Assembly (NCBI GenBank): GCA_017553325.1
Contig: JAFZMH010000004.1
Coordinates: 1 to 64,000, forward strand
Direction: 5' to 3'
From: Clostridia bacterium
Lineage (GTDB): Bacteria; Bacillota; Clostridia; Christensenellales; CAG-917
Length of the DNA: 64,000 bases
Shown here one piece after another: positions 13,540-49,544 of the stretch. The position numbers and the translations under genes were made by a program. The notes under the pieces are model-generated. The model ran no database searches and was not told the origin of the DNA. It saw only the letters and a program-made list of their open reading frames with translations. Position 1 is the stretch's first letter; each line of letters opens with the position of its first letter.

Positions 13540-13615
13540 GGGGGTGTGGCTCAGTTGGTAGAGCGTCGCGTTCGCAACGCGAAGGCCAGGGGTTCGAATC
13601 CCCTCATCTCCACCA
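13540..13615 (+). tRNA. tRNA-Ala (CGC)
   Basis: A complete 76-nt cloverleaf with encoded CCA. The acceptor stem pairs GGGGGTG with CATCTCC and includes the G3:U70 wobble that identifies alanine tRNAs. The D arm is GCTC/GAGC, the anticodon stem TCGCG/CGCGA with loop TTCGCAA (anticodon CGC), and the T arm GGGGTTCGAATCCCC. It reads GCG codons. Its last 21 nt are repeated twice downstream at 154-bp spacing. Confidence 0.97.
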
Positions 13616-13640
13616 AACACGTCTTTGGACGTGTTTTTTT
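13615..13640 (+). terminator. Terminator of tRNA-Ala (copy 1 of 3)
   Basis: AAACACGTC pairs with GACGTGTTT around TTTG (9 bp), followed by a U-run. The same hairpin, base for base, recurs at 13769-13794 and 13923-13948. Confidence 0.9.
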
Positions 13641-13642
13641 AT

Positions 13643-13769
13643 TGGAGATGGGGATTTGTGTAAAACTATTGCGCTTGCAACAAAGTTGCACAACCCCTGT
13701 CCTACGGCCATGCTGCACGCGATTGGCTTCGCAACAATCGCTGTAAGACGAATCCCCTCATCTCCACCA
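13643..13769 (+). repeat. tRNA-tail element, Ala copy 1
   Basis: This 127-nt unit begins with TGGAGATGGGGATTTG, nearly the reverse complement of the tRNA-Ala 3' end, and ends with the 21-nt tRNA 3' end itself including CCA (13749-13769). The two ends can pair over 7 bp (GGAGATG/CATCTCC) and beyond, like an acceptor stem. The core carries hairpins TGCAAC/GTTGCA and GCGATTG/CAATCGC; the loop of the latter contains TTCGCAA, the tRNA-Ala anticodon loop sequence. A terminator follows at 13769-13794. No credible gene lies inside. Confidence 0.85.
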
Positions 13770-13794
13770 AACACGTCTTTGGACGTGTTTTTTT
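13769..13794 (+). terminator. Terminator copy 2, after tRNA-tail element 1
   Basis: Identical hairpin to the tRNA-Ala terminator, with a U-run. If the first terminator leaks, the element RNA would end here. Confidence 0.85.
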
Positions 13795-13796
13795 AC

Positions 13797-13923
13797 TGGA
13801 GATGGGGATTTGTGCAAAACTATTGCACTTGCAACAAAGTTGCACAACCCCTGCCCTGCGGCCATGCTGCACGCGATTGGCTTCGCAACAATCGCTGTAA
13901 GGCGAATCCCTTTATCTCCACCA
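13797..13923 (+). repeat. tRNA-tail element, Ala copy 2
   Basis: Second tandem unit, 127 nt, exactly 154 bp from the first. It differs from copy 1 at roughly seven positions, including the tRNA-like tail, which reads CCCTTTATCTCC instead of CCCCTCATCTCC. Both core hairpins are kept. A third terminator follows (13923-13948), then an isolated third head TGGAGATGGGGATTT (13951-13965) that leads into unrelated sequence. Confidence 0.85.
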
Positions 13924-13948
13924 AACACGTCTTTGGACGTGTTTTTTT
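13923..13948 (+). terminator. Terminator copy 3, after tRNA-tail element 2
   Basis: Third identical copy of the AAACACGTC/GACGTGTTT hairpin with U-run. Confidence 0.85.
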
Positions 13949-14044
13949 ATTGGAGATGGGGATTTATCACAACGCAGTTCGGGGGACTTGGACTGCTTTT
14001 TTTTGCGAAAAGATGGGAAAATTTGATTATTTTGAAAAACGGTA

Positions 14045-14095: not shown

Positions 14096-17000
14096 ATGAA
14101 GATGAGAATGCGTATGACAAAAACCGGGGTAAAACGTTTTATTGTTGCTGTCGCTGTTGCGGCTGCAATTATTTTATTATCGGGAATTTTTGTCGGTTTT
14201 GACTCTAAAATTGCCTGCGCGGACGGCGAGATTGACGTGTGGGACGGCTCGGTGGAAACGAGCTGGTACACCGAACACACATCCGACCCCTCGTTCGAGA
14301 TTTCATCCGCCGCCCAACTTGCGGGACTGTCGCAACTGAGCTACGACAACGAACTCACTTTTGAAGGCAAAACCATCACTCTCACTCGCGACATAGATTT
14401 GAACGGTTGCAAAGTTTTCGAAATTTTTGAAAATTCCAAACATAAAAACGCAATAAACTTTACGGACACTGCCGAACGCAACGTTTGGGTGCCTATTCGC
14501 ATATTCTCCGGCACTTTTGACGGCGGAAATCACACGATTTACAATATGAGCGTGCAAGATGGCGCCTATGCGGAAGGGCTCGGATGGGACAGCGGGTTTA
14601 TTCCGATGTGTTCAAACGGCACGGTAAGAAACCTCGGATTTGCAAACGCCATCGTTTCGGCGACCCGTCACGCGGGCGTTGCGGTTGGAACCAACGACAA
14701 CGGAACGATAAGAAACGTCACGGTTGAAAACTCTCAAATTCTGCTTGCTCAATACTGCGCGGGCGGTATAGCGGGCACTTCGAGTTCGCTCATCGACTGC
14801 GTAGTGCGCGGACTCACCGTAAATTGCGAACTCGGCGGTTCACAACTTATCGGCGGTCTCGTGGGCGCAAGCGGTCCAACCGCAAACGAGCCTACGTCCA
14901 TCACCCTGACACGCTGTGAGGTCTACAACTTTTCAATCATAAACGCCGTATCGCCAACCTGCGTCGGTCTGTTCGCCGGCAACGACGGACAGGACGTCAG
15001 TCTGACGAACTGCAAGGCAAACGGCTGGGTGGGTTTGGCGTCGAACAGCGATTTCACAGTGAGCGGAGACGAGAGTATCGTATGGCAAAACGTCGAGCAA
15101 ACGACAGTAAACGGCAACGTGGTTGCAGGCGGAGGAAACAATTCCTACGCGTACGACGCGACCTCTTGCCACGGCTACCCCGTGGTCGTGACGTTTGTCT
15201 CCGCACCGTACTCCGTAATTATAGAATGCACGGGAGCGGACGCTCCGTCCTATACGTTGACAGGGCGCACGCTGAGTTTTTCTATTCCGTCAACCGCGAC
15301 GGACTTGACCATAACCGCAAAAATGCAACAGCCGGCAAGCGCGGAGGACCACACCTACGACGTGACGGCGACTTTTGATATAGGCGACAATTCAGGTCCT
15401 GACTACACCGCTCTCGACGCTCTCCTCGACGACTATATGGACGCGGTTGAGGCTCTTGGCGGAAACGACCTCGTCGCCACCGCTCAAACGCTGTACGCAA
15501 ATTATCTCGCTCTCTTGGACGGCAAGACAGCGGACGAACTCACTCATATCGCCTCTTATCTCGAGGATACGAACGACTATGCGAGCGCGATTGTGAAACG
15601 CATTTCTTCCGTCTCCGCCTCGACCTACGGCGATACGACGGTCACCGCCACTCTCGAAATGATTGACGGCACGACGAAGGCGGAATCTGCGACGATTGCG
15701 TCGTTTACGACGCAAAACTCGTTGAGCGCAACCGTAAACAGCACTCAAACGTACAAGCAGACCGAATACGTCGTTTCCTACGTTGCGACCAACGTTCAAC
15801 CGAAGCATATCACTGTCACCATAGACGACAAGCAAAGTCAATACGGCGACGGCGTAGTCGCTTTGACGCATTCCGTCCCCGCCCTCATAGAGGGAGAGCA
15901 GAACGTCAATTTCATAACGCTTGAAAAAGCGGCGGGCAACGCCGTCGGCAATTACGAAATAACCGGCGAGGCTTCGCACCTCGGCTACTCGGTTGATTTC
16001 ACGACGGGGACCTATACGATTGTCCCTCGACAAATCAAAATCGTAATTCACGATTTGGAGTCGGAATACGGCGACAATCTCAGCGCGTTGGGCGCAGACC
16101 TCGAAGATGGCTACACCTTTGCGTACGGCGACCAAATGGAGGACGTAATCGAACTTTTAAAAGTGGACGGAACCGCGGTTTCGACTTATGACATAAGTTT
16201 CAACTGCATAAACTCAAACTACTCCGTCACAAGCGACAAACTCGGCGTGTATACGATAACTCCGCGTGCTGTGAAAATCACGATTGACGACAAAAACTCC
16301 GTATACGGAGAGAGCGACGTCCCTTTGACTTTCAGCCTTGACGAGGGCTACGAAACGGCATACGACGAGGACGTCAACTCGCTCGTCACTCTTGCAAGAG
16401 AGGCGGGAACGGGCGCGAAAGACTATGCCGTTTCTATCGCGCTTTACGACCCGAACTATACGGTCACCGCGACCAAAAACGGAGTTTACACGATCAATAA
16501 GCGTCCTATAACTATCGTTATTGATAGTTTGACGGCTGAATACGGCGAAGAAAACGCGCCTGAACCGTCGGCTGCATTGAAGACAGGTTCTACCCTCGCA
16601 ACGGGAGACGAGTTGACAAAAATTCTCTCTTTGTCAAAGGGCACGAATAAGAACGTGGGCGTTCACACTATCACCTGTTCGGACAAGAGCGGAAACTATG
16701 AAATCACCTTGGACAGCGTTGCGACTTATACGATTAAGCCAAAATCCATCTCCGTGAAGATTGACGACAAAGAGTCGTATTTCGGCGATTCTATCGCAGA
16801 ACTGACCTGCTCCGTGAAGGGCGAAGTCGAATTGCCCTATGGCGACGACGTTTACGACGTGGTCTCCCTCTCGACGACGTCGGGCGAAAACGTCGGCCCT
16901 TTCACGATAACCGGCGCGATGAAAGCAGGCAGCGAAATAAGCGGAAATTACGAGGTCGAATTTGAGGAAGGCACCTACACCGTTCTCCCACGCCCAATAT

Positions 17001-18043
17001 CAATTCGCATCAACGACGCAACGTCGGTCTACGGCGAGGAAGACGCCTCACTATCCGCAGTCATTACGAGCGGAAGCCTGGTCGGTGAAACAGACGTCAC
17101 TTCCGTTTTGACCCTCGTCAGAGAAAAGGGCGCGGACGTCGGCACGTACGAAATATACAGACAACTCAAAGATGACATCAATTACGACGTAAAGTGGACG
17201 GACGGCGTTTATACAATAACTCCAAGACCGATTACGGTTTCCGTTTCGGACGCGACAAGCGTGTACGGCGAAGCGCTCGCCAAACATACGCTCGCCTTAA
17301 CGCAAGGCGAAACAAAAGATTCGCTCGAAGACGTCATCGTCGTCTCCGAACCCGATTCTTTGGCGGCGGGCACGTACGAGATAACCGCTCGCGTAAAAAG
17401 CGCGTCGGGCAAAGAGCCGAATTACGACGCGACTTTCGTCTATACGCACGACGACCACTCAATCTACGTCATTGAAAAGAAGGACGCGTCAAGCGGAATT
17501 ACCGCGAACATCTCAAACGGCGCAAGCGTAATTCAAGGCACGGCGGTAAACTTCGAAACAAATATAGTCGGCGCAAAAATCGAAAAAACTATCACTTTGA
17601 ACGGACGAACCGTCGAAAACACCGACGCAGTCGGTGAGTATTCGATAACCGCTACCCTCGCGGACGACAACTTCTTTGGGAGTTTGACGATAACGTTCTC
17701 CACCTACGAAAACGTGCTCGGCAAAATCGAGGCTATTGCGGAATACGTCGCGACTTACAATCTTGCGAGCGCAAGCGACGAGGAAAGAATCGAGGCGTTG
17801 TTCTCCGCTCAGGCAATCTACGCGAATATGAGCGCGACGGACCTTATGCAGATAGAAGCGAACGACGACTACCAAACGGCTGTCAACGGCTTTATAACAT
17901 GCTGGAACGCCTTGCGAGAAGGCGCGGAGAAAGATATTGCCGTCGCTCAAAAGGCGTACGACAACACCCTCGCCGTCGTGCTTGCCGCGACGTCCGCCGC
18001 TACCCTGCTCGGGCTTGCGGTTGTGAAACTTATTTTGGGATGA
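14096..18043 (+). CDS. Large secreted surface protein with GLUG region and seven MBG (YGX-type) repeats
   Basis: This 1315-residue protein is probably exported and membrane-anchored. A basic N-terminus and hydrophobic stretch (about 13-35) look like a signal peptide ending near ACADG. Residues 50-290 contain GLUG-type beta-helix motifs (GTFDGGNHTIYNMS, GGIAGTSS, IGGLVGASG). Seven MBG-like Ig repeats of about 78 residues start near 571, 648, 727, 805, 885, 968 and 1045, each opening with a pattern like ITIDDKNSVYGE. The C-terminus has one hydrophobic segment (about 1290-1312) and no LPXTG. Four in-frame ATGs (14096, 14102, 14108, 14114) are possible starts. It is followed after 10 bp by a lipoprotein gene. 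Adhesion or matrix binding is inferred from the domains. Confidence 0.8.
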   Translation: MKMRMRMTKTGVKRFIVAVAVAAAIILLSGIFVGFDSKIACADGEIDVWDGSVETSWYTEHTSDPSFEISSAAQLAGLSQLSYDNELTFEGKTITLTRDIDLNGCKVFEIFENSKHKNAINFTDTAERNVWVPIRIFSGTFDGGNHTIYNMSVQDGAYAEGLGWDSGFIPMCSNGTVRNLGFANAIVSATRHAGVAVGTNDNGTIRNVTVENSQILLAQYCAGGIAGTSSSLIDCVVRGLTVNCELGGSQLIGGLVGASGPTANEPTSITLTRCEVYNFSIINAVSPTCVGLFAGNDGQDVSLTNCKANGWVGLASNSDFTVSGDESIVWQNVEQTTVNGNVVAGGGNNSYAYDATSCHGYPVVVTFVSAPYSVIIECTGADAPSYTLTGRTLSFSIPSTATDLTITAKMQQPASAEDHTYDVTATFDIGDNSGPDYTALDALLDDYMDAVEALGGNDLVATAQTLYANYLALLDGKTADELTHIASYLEDTNDYASAIVKRISSVSASTYGDTTVTATLEMIDGTTKAESATIASFTTQNSLSATVNSTQTYKQTEYVVSYVATNVQPKHITVTIDDKQSQYGDGVVALTHSVPALIEGEQNVNFITLEKAAGNAVGNYEITGEASHLGYSVDFTTGTYTIVPRQIKIVIHDLESEYGDNLSALGADLEDGYTFAYGDQMEDVIELLKVDGTAVSTYDISFNCINSNYSVTSDKLGVYTITPRAVKITIDDKNSVYGESDVPLTFSLDEGYETAYDEDVNSLVTLAREAGTGAKDYAVSIALYDPNYTVTATKNGVYTINKRPITIVIDSLTAEYGEENAPEPSAALKTGSTLATGDELTKILSLSKGTNKNVGVHTITCSDKSGNYEITLDSVATYTIKPKSISVKIDDKESYFGDSIAELTCSVKGEVELPYGDDVYDVVSLSTTSGENVGPFTITGAMKAGSEISGNYEVEFEEGTYTVLPRPISIRINDATSVYGEEDASLSAVITSGSLVGETDVTSVLTLVREKGADVGTYEIYRQLKDDINYDVKWTDGVYTITPRPITVSVSDATSVYGEALAKHTLALTQGETKDSLEDVIVVSEPDSLAAGTYEITARVKSASGKEPNYDATFVYTHDDHSIYVIEKKDASSGITANISNGASVIQGTAVNFETNIVGAKIEKTITLNGRTVENTDAVGEYSITATLADDNFFGSLTITFSTYENVLGKIEAIAEYVATYNLASASDEERIEALFSAQAIYANMSATDLMQIEANDDYQTAVNGFITCWNALREGAEKDIAVAQKAYDNTLAVVLAATSAATLLGLAVVKLILG

Positions 18044-49235: not shown

Positions 49236-49257
49236 TCCGTTTGAATCCCTCCGCTTC
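49236..49257 (-). repeat. Isolated head of a tRNA-tail element, Ser type
   Basis: On the minus strand GAAGCGGAGGGATTCAAACG resembles the reverse complement of the tRNA-Ser 3' end with a few changes. It stands after the second Ser-type terminator, just as a third isolated head follows the two Ala elements. Confidence 0.6.
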
Positions 49258-49262
49258 AGTCA

Positions 49263-49294
49263 AAGAAAAAGCAACCCATTTTTGGGCTGCTTGT
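49263..49294 (-). terminator. Terminator after the Ser tRNA-tail element
   Basis: On the minus strand AAGCAGCCCA pairs with TGGGTTGCTT around AAAA, with one G-U wobble that fits only this strand, followed by TTTCTTT. Confidence 0.8.
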
Positions 49295-49295
49295 T

Positions 49296-49430
49296 TGGCG
49301 GAAGTGGAGGGATTCGTTCAATAGCGAGGCGTGCGAAATAATTCGCAAAGGCACGCGTCAGCCCCGTGAAGGGGGTTCGCTGTGCAGGGCACAGACTTGT
49401 CATTTATGACAAGTTGTTCCCTCGCTTCCG
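49296..49430 (-). repeat. tRNA-tail element, Ser type
   Basis: Read on the minus strand, this 135-nt unit starts CGGAAGCGAGGGA, near the reverse complement of the tRNA-Ser 3' end, and ends with an exact 21-nt copy of that 3' end including CCA (49296-49316), 160 bp from the original. The core holds hairpins ACTTGTCAT/ATGACAAGT, CTGTGC/GCACAG and CCCC-TTCA-CGGGG, then CTGACGCG, then TGCGAA/TTCGCA. The design is the same as at tRNA-Ala although the core sequence differs. No credible gene lies inside. Confidence 0.85.
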
Positions 49431-49456
49431 TAAAAAAACAGCCCCTTAGGGCTGTT
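49431..49456 (-). terminator. Terminator of tRNA-Ser
   Basis: ACAGCCC and GGGCTGT pair around CTTA directly after the CCA end; seven T follow on the minus strand. Confidence 0.88.
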
Positions 49457-49544
49457 GGCGGAAGTGGAGGGATTCGAACCCCCGTGGGCTTTCACCCAAA
49501 CGGTTTTCAAGACCGCCTCGTTGTGACCGCTTCGATACACTTCC
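49456..49544 (-). tRNA. tRNA-Ser (TGA)
   Basis: An 89-nt class II tRNA with encoded CCA. The acceptor is GGAAGTG/CACTTCC with G discriminator, the anticodon loop CTTGAAA (anticodon TGA), the long variable arm TTGGGTGAAAGCCCA and the T arm GGGGGTTCGAATCCCTC. It reads UCA and related serine codons. Its 3' end faces the tRNA-tail element; its 5' end faces the giant surface locus. Confidence 0.97.

Follow-up and report, generated by a model that had tools for sequence, protein, structure and literature searches.

Why should the 3′ end of a tRNA gene stand three times in a row, and what are the sequences that separate its copies? The question is raised by the tRNA-Ala(CGC) gene in the window, by which we mean the whole 64,000-nt stretch of DNA analysed here, taken from the genome of a Clostridia bacterium. 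The gene is followed by a tandem repeat whose two 154-nt copies start at 13595 and 13749 and share 96% identity, and a third, partial copy of 63 nt starts at 13903 and agrees at 97–98% over its 63 nt. Each repeat runs from a tail, namely the last 21 nt of the tRNA including CCA (nt 56–76), through a terminator to a shortened inverted head, GGAGATGGGGATTTG. An earlier, sequence-only reading had described this 154-bp unit with its three tRNA-Ala tails, the inverted shortened heads and a third head stranded at about 13951–13965, and all of this was confirmed. As to its meaning, that reading offered structured RNAs mimicking tRNA ends, a mobile element using tRNA tails as ends, or repeated att-site remnants, and taken as a whole it is partly supported by our analysis. 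The explanation that we favor, at a probability of roughly 0.58, is that the repeat consists of two very small mobile DNA cassettes without genes, arrayed at the tRNA-Ala 3′ end and working in an integron-like manner with T-loops as attachment sites. The features concerned are:

13540–13615, plus strand: host gene tRNA-Ala(CGC) (ARAGORN; Rfam RF00005, 72.9 bits), of which nt 56–76 (13595–13615) are tail 1
13616–13643, plus strand: terminator hairpin of cassette 1, AACACGTC-TTTG-GACGTGTT and a T run, recurring in the sequence after all three tails
13644–13658, plus strand: inverted head 1, the reverse complement of the tail but 2 nt shorter (own-tRNA match, 0/5000 permutations)
13658–13690, plus strand: insert A of unit 1, with predicted hairpins GTGTAA-AACTA-TTGCGC and TGCAAC-AAA-GTTGCA
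13691–13712, plus strand: apex CAACCCCTGTCC-TAC-GGCCATG, the reverse complement of host tRNA nt ~44–51 and then its forward copy (left arm matches own tRNA, 0/5000 permutations)
13713–13748, plus strand: conserved insert B of unit 1, CTGCACGCGATTG-loop-CAATCGCTGTAAGA, replacing tRNA nt 52–55
13749–13769, plus strand: tail 2, 21/21 identical to tRNA-Ala nt 56–76
13770–13902, plus strand: unit 2, with terminator, head, insert A, apex and insert B (13867–13902), 96% identical to unit 1
13903–13923, plus strand: tail 3, with 2 mismatches
13924–13965, plus strand: terminator and stranded third head, the truncated end of the array (from sequence and repeat families)
49456–49544, minus strand: second host gene, tRNA-Ser(TGA)
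49296–49455, minus strand: 160-nt unit after tRNA-Ser(TGA), with terminator, head, two-hairpin insert A, apex CCCC/GGGG, insert B of the CTGACGC...GCTATTGAA type and a perfect tail at 49296–49316
49236–49295, minus strand: terminator and stranded head GAAGCGGAGGGATTC after the tRNA-Ser array, the same truncated end as at 13951

Architecture and strand symmetry of the units

A typical unit consists of a terminator, an inverted head, insert A, the reverse complement of tRNA nt ~44–51, a short loop, the same nt ~44–51 in forward orientation, insert B, and the tail of nt 56–76, and truncated final units often end the arrays of relatives, as one does here. Insert A usually has two hairpins in the genus, a layout that recurs in most of its units. 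The conserved part of the unit is insert B. It reads CTGCACGC...CGCTGTAAG, its inner stem being of the GATTG/CAATC or TCCGC type, or in a variant form CTGACGC...GCTATT; it is 36–50 nt long and is seen behind many types of tRNA gene, in families f1 and f5. The units themselves are non-coding, range from 94 to 340 bp and carry no integrase. Among 45 non-redundant units, the head matched its own tRNA better than other tRNAs (0/5000 permutations) and so did the 9-mer before insert B (0/5000 permutations), while the tails were identical to the host tRNA in 31 of the 45, a number that is favored by the similarity threshold in tail selection. Since head and left arm match the own tRNA, the unit reads, as far as sequence comparison goes, as a palindrome of the 3′ third of the host tRNA with hairpins at the T-loop. 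Tandem units within one array can differ only in insert B (locus L010), an outcome that homologous recombination could give too.

Is this palindrome a property of the DNA or of an RNA? The segment 13644–13768 has a predicted fold of -45.4 kcal/mol (z = -4.7), and none of 200 shuffles was as good. This strong fold, the covariation between head and tail, and a mean z over 40 units that is slightly better on the plus strand (-4.0) than on the minus strand (-3.5) speak for a family of structured RNAs mimicking tRNA 3′ ends, which would be read through from the tRNA promoter and processed to the CCA end. The advantage of the plus strand relative to shuffles (p about 0.02) is too weak to rest on, and the two strands hardly differ in how well they fold. 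Selection on a transcript would be expected to leave G.T mismatches on the transcribed strand. Helix mismatches were counted under a folding score that makes no difference between G.T and A.C, and 37 units gave 70 G.T and 102 A.C, against 44 and 2 for the acceptor and T stems in 41 tRNAs from this genome; the units thus have no G.T bias, which argues against a structured RNA. In addition, a terminator precedes each unit, the acceptor-like outer stem that had been noted at tRNA-Ala is lost in many units elsewhere, and the Rfam search at this locus returned the tRNA only, with no match for the unit. Covariation is uninformative on RNA function because copying of the host tRNA produces it either way, and we read the head–tail covariation seen earlier as the trace of a DNA palindrome. 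The likeness of one loop to the anticodon-loop sequence TTCGCAA is a coincidence, the loops of other units being ACTTTGTAG, CGCTTCGCG, GCCTTACGG and others. None of the checks, which were folding of the two strands, their comparison and the mismatch bias, revealed an RNA signature; the constraint on the units is one of DNA rather than RNA, and it is very improbable that they are tRNA-mimicking transcripts.

Distribution behind tRNA genes and single-gene cassettes

For all 43 tRNA genes listed in the genome, a search of the next 1.5 kb downstream for the gene's own 21-nt tail turned up copies behind about 8 of them, namely Ala(CGC), Ala(GGC), Arg(ACG), Arg(CCG), Leu(TAG), Ser(TGA), Val(GAC) and, with 4 mismatches, Ser(GGA); a longer scan of the same regions at up to 3 mismatches gave no tail copies upstream of the listed tRNAs. 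A search of the own genome also located, at a distance of 69 kb, a related core that follows tRNA-Arg(ACG), where two units bear tRNA-Arg tails. In relatives from the genus and the order, which where named are uncultured Clostridia including Candidatus Alloclostridium, units stand after Ala, Arg, Leu, Thr, Val, Ser, Glu and Pro tRNA genes and after tmRNA genes, and the arrays of other species hold from none to two or more copies. In the sister species G005 the tRNA-Ala gene lies without any unit between the same two neighbors, a phosphoesterase (83% amino-acid identity) and a secreted protein (47%), and this is an empty orthologous site. Tails and palindromes specific to their tRNA, the many tRNA targets and the empty site all support the idea of a mobile element using tRNA tails as ends; the alternative of repeated att-site remnants we judge to be close to that same idea.

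Contigs often break at unit arrays, which would suit an assembly artefact or a pure local tandem duplication but is also expected because arrays are repeats; all genomes are drafts, mostly metagenome bins, in which unit arrays may be collapsed. Independent instances that differ in sequence are found behind other tRNAs of the own genome and in about 17 related genomes, and with the empty site of the sister species they make an artefact or local duplication scarcely credible.

Several observations were made beside the arrays. Directly downstream of the Ala array, the window encodes at 14096–18043 a 1315-aa secreted protein with repeated modules, a homolog of which is found at the empty site of G005. 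At locus L035 (G034:C144) a gpsA-like gene passes after its first ~30 codons straight into a tRNA-Ala tail and unit array; either the insertion was off-target or the contig is chimeric. Several arrays in the genus have another GC-rich repeat, GCATGCGGTGGCTTCGTCCCGCTGTCGGC...GTAAGGGCTG, downstream of them (L137, L147, L149, L031).

Slots bounded by tails hold, in relatives, single-gene cassettes behind a shared promoter-leader, with GNAT, glyoxalase, GrpB, nitroreductase, PNPOx, TraX, HTH and one Cass2 “integron-associated effector binding protein” as cargo. In G004 the tRNA-Leu(CAA) gene has a perfect tail behind it, and then come 1.1 kb that hold a single OmdA/YdeI-like gene (its Pfam match falls slightly short of the cut-off), a terminal palindrome and a second perfect tail. 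The promoter-leader of this cassette, TATAAT-N-GATAAACAGNAATTTA (pattern TATAAT-N-GATAAACAGTAATTTA), recurs before different genes and is present in 37 of 396 genomes of the order, in families f1, f5, f14, f19 and f32, against 0 for a reversed control pattern. A same-strand tRNA gene was found within 1.5 kb upstream of the leader at 15 of the 33 loci examined. Six leader loci lie exactly 103 nt behind tRNA-Leu genes, in four families, and the first 100 nt after CCA are 98–100% identical in f1, f14 and f19 beside differing tRNA-Leu genes; therefore DNA moved between families and between tRNA genes. The near-identical terminator and promoter-leader AGTCAGTATAATCCGAACC...GATAAACAGGAATTTA, 103 nt behind different tRNA-Leu genes in four families, was observed at L185/L134 (G004:C8), L188/L190 (G015, G018), L216, L218, L221, L222 and L228, and the gene behind it is always small and mostly differs between genomes.

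A direct exchange of cargo is seen at tRNA-Val(TAC), where the gene that stands behind two units is a GrpB gene in one of the species G015 and G018 and an HTH gene in the other; the flanks are 98% identical, the left junction is formed by tail and terminator and the right one by a tail remnant. What looks like the same HTH cassette stands after tRNA-Tyr in another family (G241). The gene-bearing relatives and this swap give the mobile-element option further backing. In the gene cassettes behind tRNA-Leu, DNA identity begins at GCACCA and not at nt 56, so that the crossover of these leader cassettes may lie at the CCA end rather than at the T-loop. Most gene cassettes have a short remnant of a tail at their end, with neither insert B nor a full palindrome, hence the units and the gene cassettes may move by different mechanisms. 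A link between the gene-less units and the leader cassettes is suggested by their co-location and shared tail boundaries, not by an observed reaction. Around the 3′ end of the gene cassette at L134, and at L183, a TTCGAA-loop hairpin closes the cassette; it is followed by GTGGTGCACCA or ATGGTGCACCA, and together they resemble a T-arm with its CCA end.

Could all this arise without a dedicated enzyme? Template switching and quasi-palindrome correction at tRNA and terminator hairpins, together with RecA-dependent unequal crossing over, could expand and homogenize palindromes, and the gene exchanges would then be homologous recombination between repeats. The absence of strand bias in the palindromes, the truncated units at array ends and the modules swapped between tandem copies are all in keeping with such an origin. 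The conserved insert B at many tRNA types and in two families, and the near-identical leaders beside unrelated tRNA-Leu genes in three, speak against it, because their recurrence needs transfer between loci and cells; we therefore regard a non-enzymatic origin as distinctly unlikely.

Candidate enzymes and comparison with known elements

The genome encodes only one tyrosine recombinase (a single PF00589 protein), a 361-aa XerS/XerC-like protein whose gene (L085, at G000:C2:136658–137233) lies beside sigF and its regulators. Neither the Y1 transposase (PF01797) nor the reverse transcriptase (PF00078, RVT_1) has any match in the genome, and Rfam gives no intron match in the window. On these grounds REP/RAYT elements and a group IIC intron or other retroelement were rejected. 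REP/BIME sequences moved by RAYT (Y1) resemble the units in being small, palindromic, non-coding and repeated, whereas the units stand behind tRNA and tmRNA genes with arms that match their target.

It is well known that integration into tRNA genes leaves direct repeats of the tRNA 3′ end, which restore the gene. Phages, ICEs, P4-like satellites and tycheposons target the tRNA 3′ end as the units do, a copied tail restores the gene while another is left at the far end, and direct repeats mark both borders. The units differ in their size, in having no integrase, in carrying inverted as well as direct copies of the tRNA, and in their tandem arrangement. Such elements could leave or mobilize attP-sized pieces through their ordinary integrases, and the units would then be non-autonomous attP remnants moved in trans, the palindrome being a mere arrangement of integrase binding sites. 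The tails would fit as the gene-restoring repeats, and conventional integrative elements do occur in the genus: G018:C13 carries one of ~2 kb in tRNA-Leu(TAA), with an adjacent integrase gene (L178/L208). Yet that local example lacks both palindrome and insert B, its ~54-bp att repeat begins in the anticodon loop, and internal arms copying the host tRNA are left unexplained. Insert B and the leader are absent from phage and plasmid collections, and viral contigs contain neither insert B nor the tRNA-Leu leader junction. The leader pattern did appear in four viral contigs, as one identical stretch within a phage that is common to all four and has no leader-type gene behind it, and was dismissed as a chance match. 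We consider remnants of ordinary integrases unlikely on balance, the weightiest of the rivals nonetheless.

Integrons provide a close parallel, since their cassettes with attC and attI combine palindromic end sites, tandem cassettes and swapped single genes (PMC8618304, PMC2727003). A target tRNA that is kept whole, palindromic ends, tandem cassettes and swapped genes lead us to propose an integron-like working of the present system. Integrons and CALINs (clusters of attC lacking integron-integrases) share with it the tandem arrays of small cassettes with imperfect palindromic end sites, single-gene cargo such as GNAT, glyoxalase and Cass2, and arrays without a resident integrase; the unit end site too is an imperfect palindrome predicted to be able to fold as a single strand, as is asked of an integron or CALIN site. 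In contrast, the attachment site here is a tRNA or tmRNA gene and the palindrome copies the host tRNA, boundaries lie at C56-R-A and not at G/TTRRRY, most units are gene-less, gene cassettes bring their own promoter-leader, and IntI was not found. On tandem exchange of single-gene cassettes the observations pull both ways: the G015/G018 swap and the tail-bracketed gene of G004 speak for it, the gene-less majority of units and the mostly incomplete palindromes at the ends of gene cassettes against it. Membership among integron attC sites was rejected: an R′ box of the G/TTRRRY type (GTTRRRY) occurs near the boundary in only 2 of 48 units, the tail starting with CRA in 46 of 48, and the integron integrase (TIGR02249, curated cut-off) exceeds the cut-off in none of 60 genomes, the own genome included. 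The system thus does not belong among the integrons, even if its working may be similar. Literature searches, in which coverage of subscription journals is thin, returned no description of tRNA-tail cassettes.

Filamentous phages of the CTXphi type, whose integration is mediated by Xer, have an attP that is single-stranded and folded. Shared with the units is that inverted target copies, ~90 nt apart, could fold into a duplex like the chromosomal target; in the units this target is a tRNA T-arm and not dif, and phage genes are absent.

Proposed cassette exchange at tRNA genes

In the cassette model that we prefer, each cassette starts with a 21-nt tail that keeps the tRNA gene whole and brings its own terminator. 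It ends in a palindrome reproducing the T-arm region of the host (nt ~44–76), in which insert B separates nt 51 from nt 56. Integron attC and the folded phage attP suggest by analogy that a single strand of this palindrome may fold into a duplex similar to the tRNA attachment site, and a site-specific recombinase would join the folded palindrome to the T-loop. Slots of this kind are also occupied by other cassettes, which carry single genes with the shared promoter-leader. The reaction could be catalyzed by the Xer-like recombinase of the genome itself, or by an enzyme that visiting elements provide in trans. Neither a circular form nor a junction was seen in these draft and metagenome assemblies. 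That one recombinase moves both the units and the gene cassettes, that crossover takes place at the T-loop, and that the intermediate is a folded single strand are steps we infer.

A wider proposal, which we put forward as tentative, is that gut Clostridia possess a system of gene-cassette exchange independent of integrons, with tRNA and tmRNA genes as attachment sites, palindromes of the host tRNA as cassette ends, possibly a Xer recombinase acting on folded single-stranded DNA, and a mobile leader that expresses the cargo. Further cases could be sought by a simple rule, copies of tRNA nt 56–76 within ~400 bp downstream of the gene plus the leader motif. If the proposal is true, these would be natural palindromic end sites made from a known template, which bears on the origin of attC-like sites, and there would be a second route of cassette exchange beside integrons, by which common gut Clostridia shuffle small adaptive genes behind their tRNA genes via sites that copy the tRNA.
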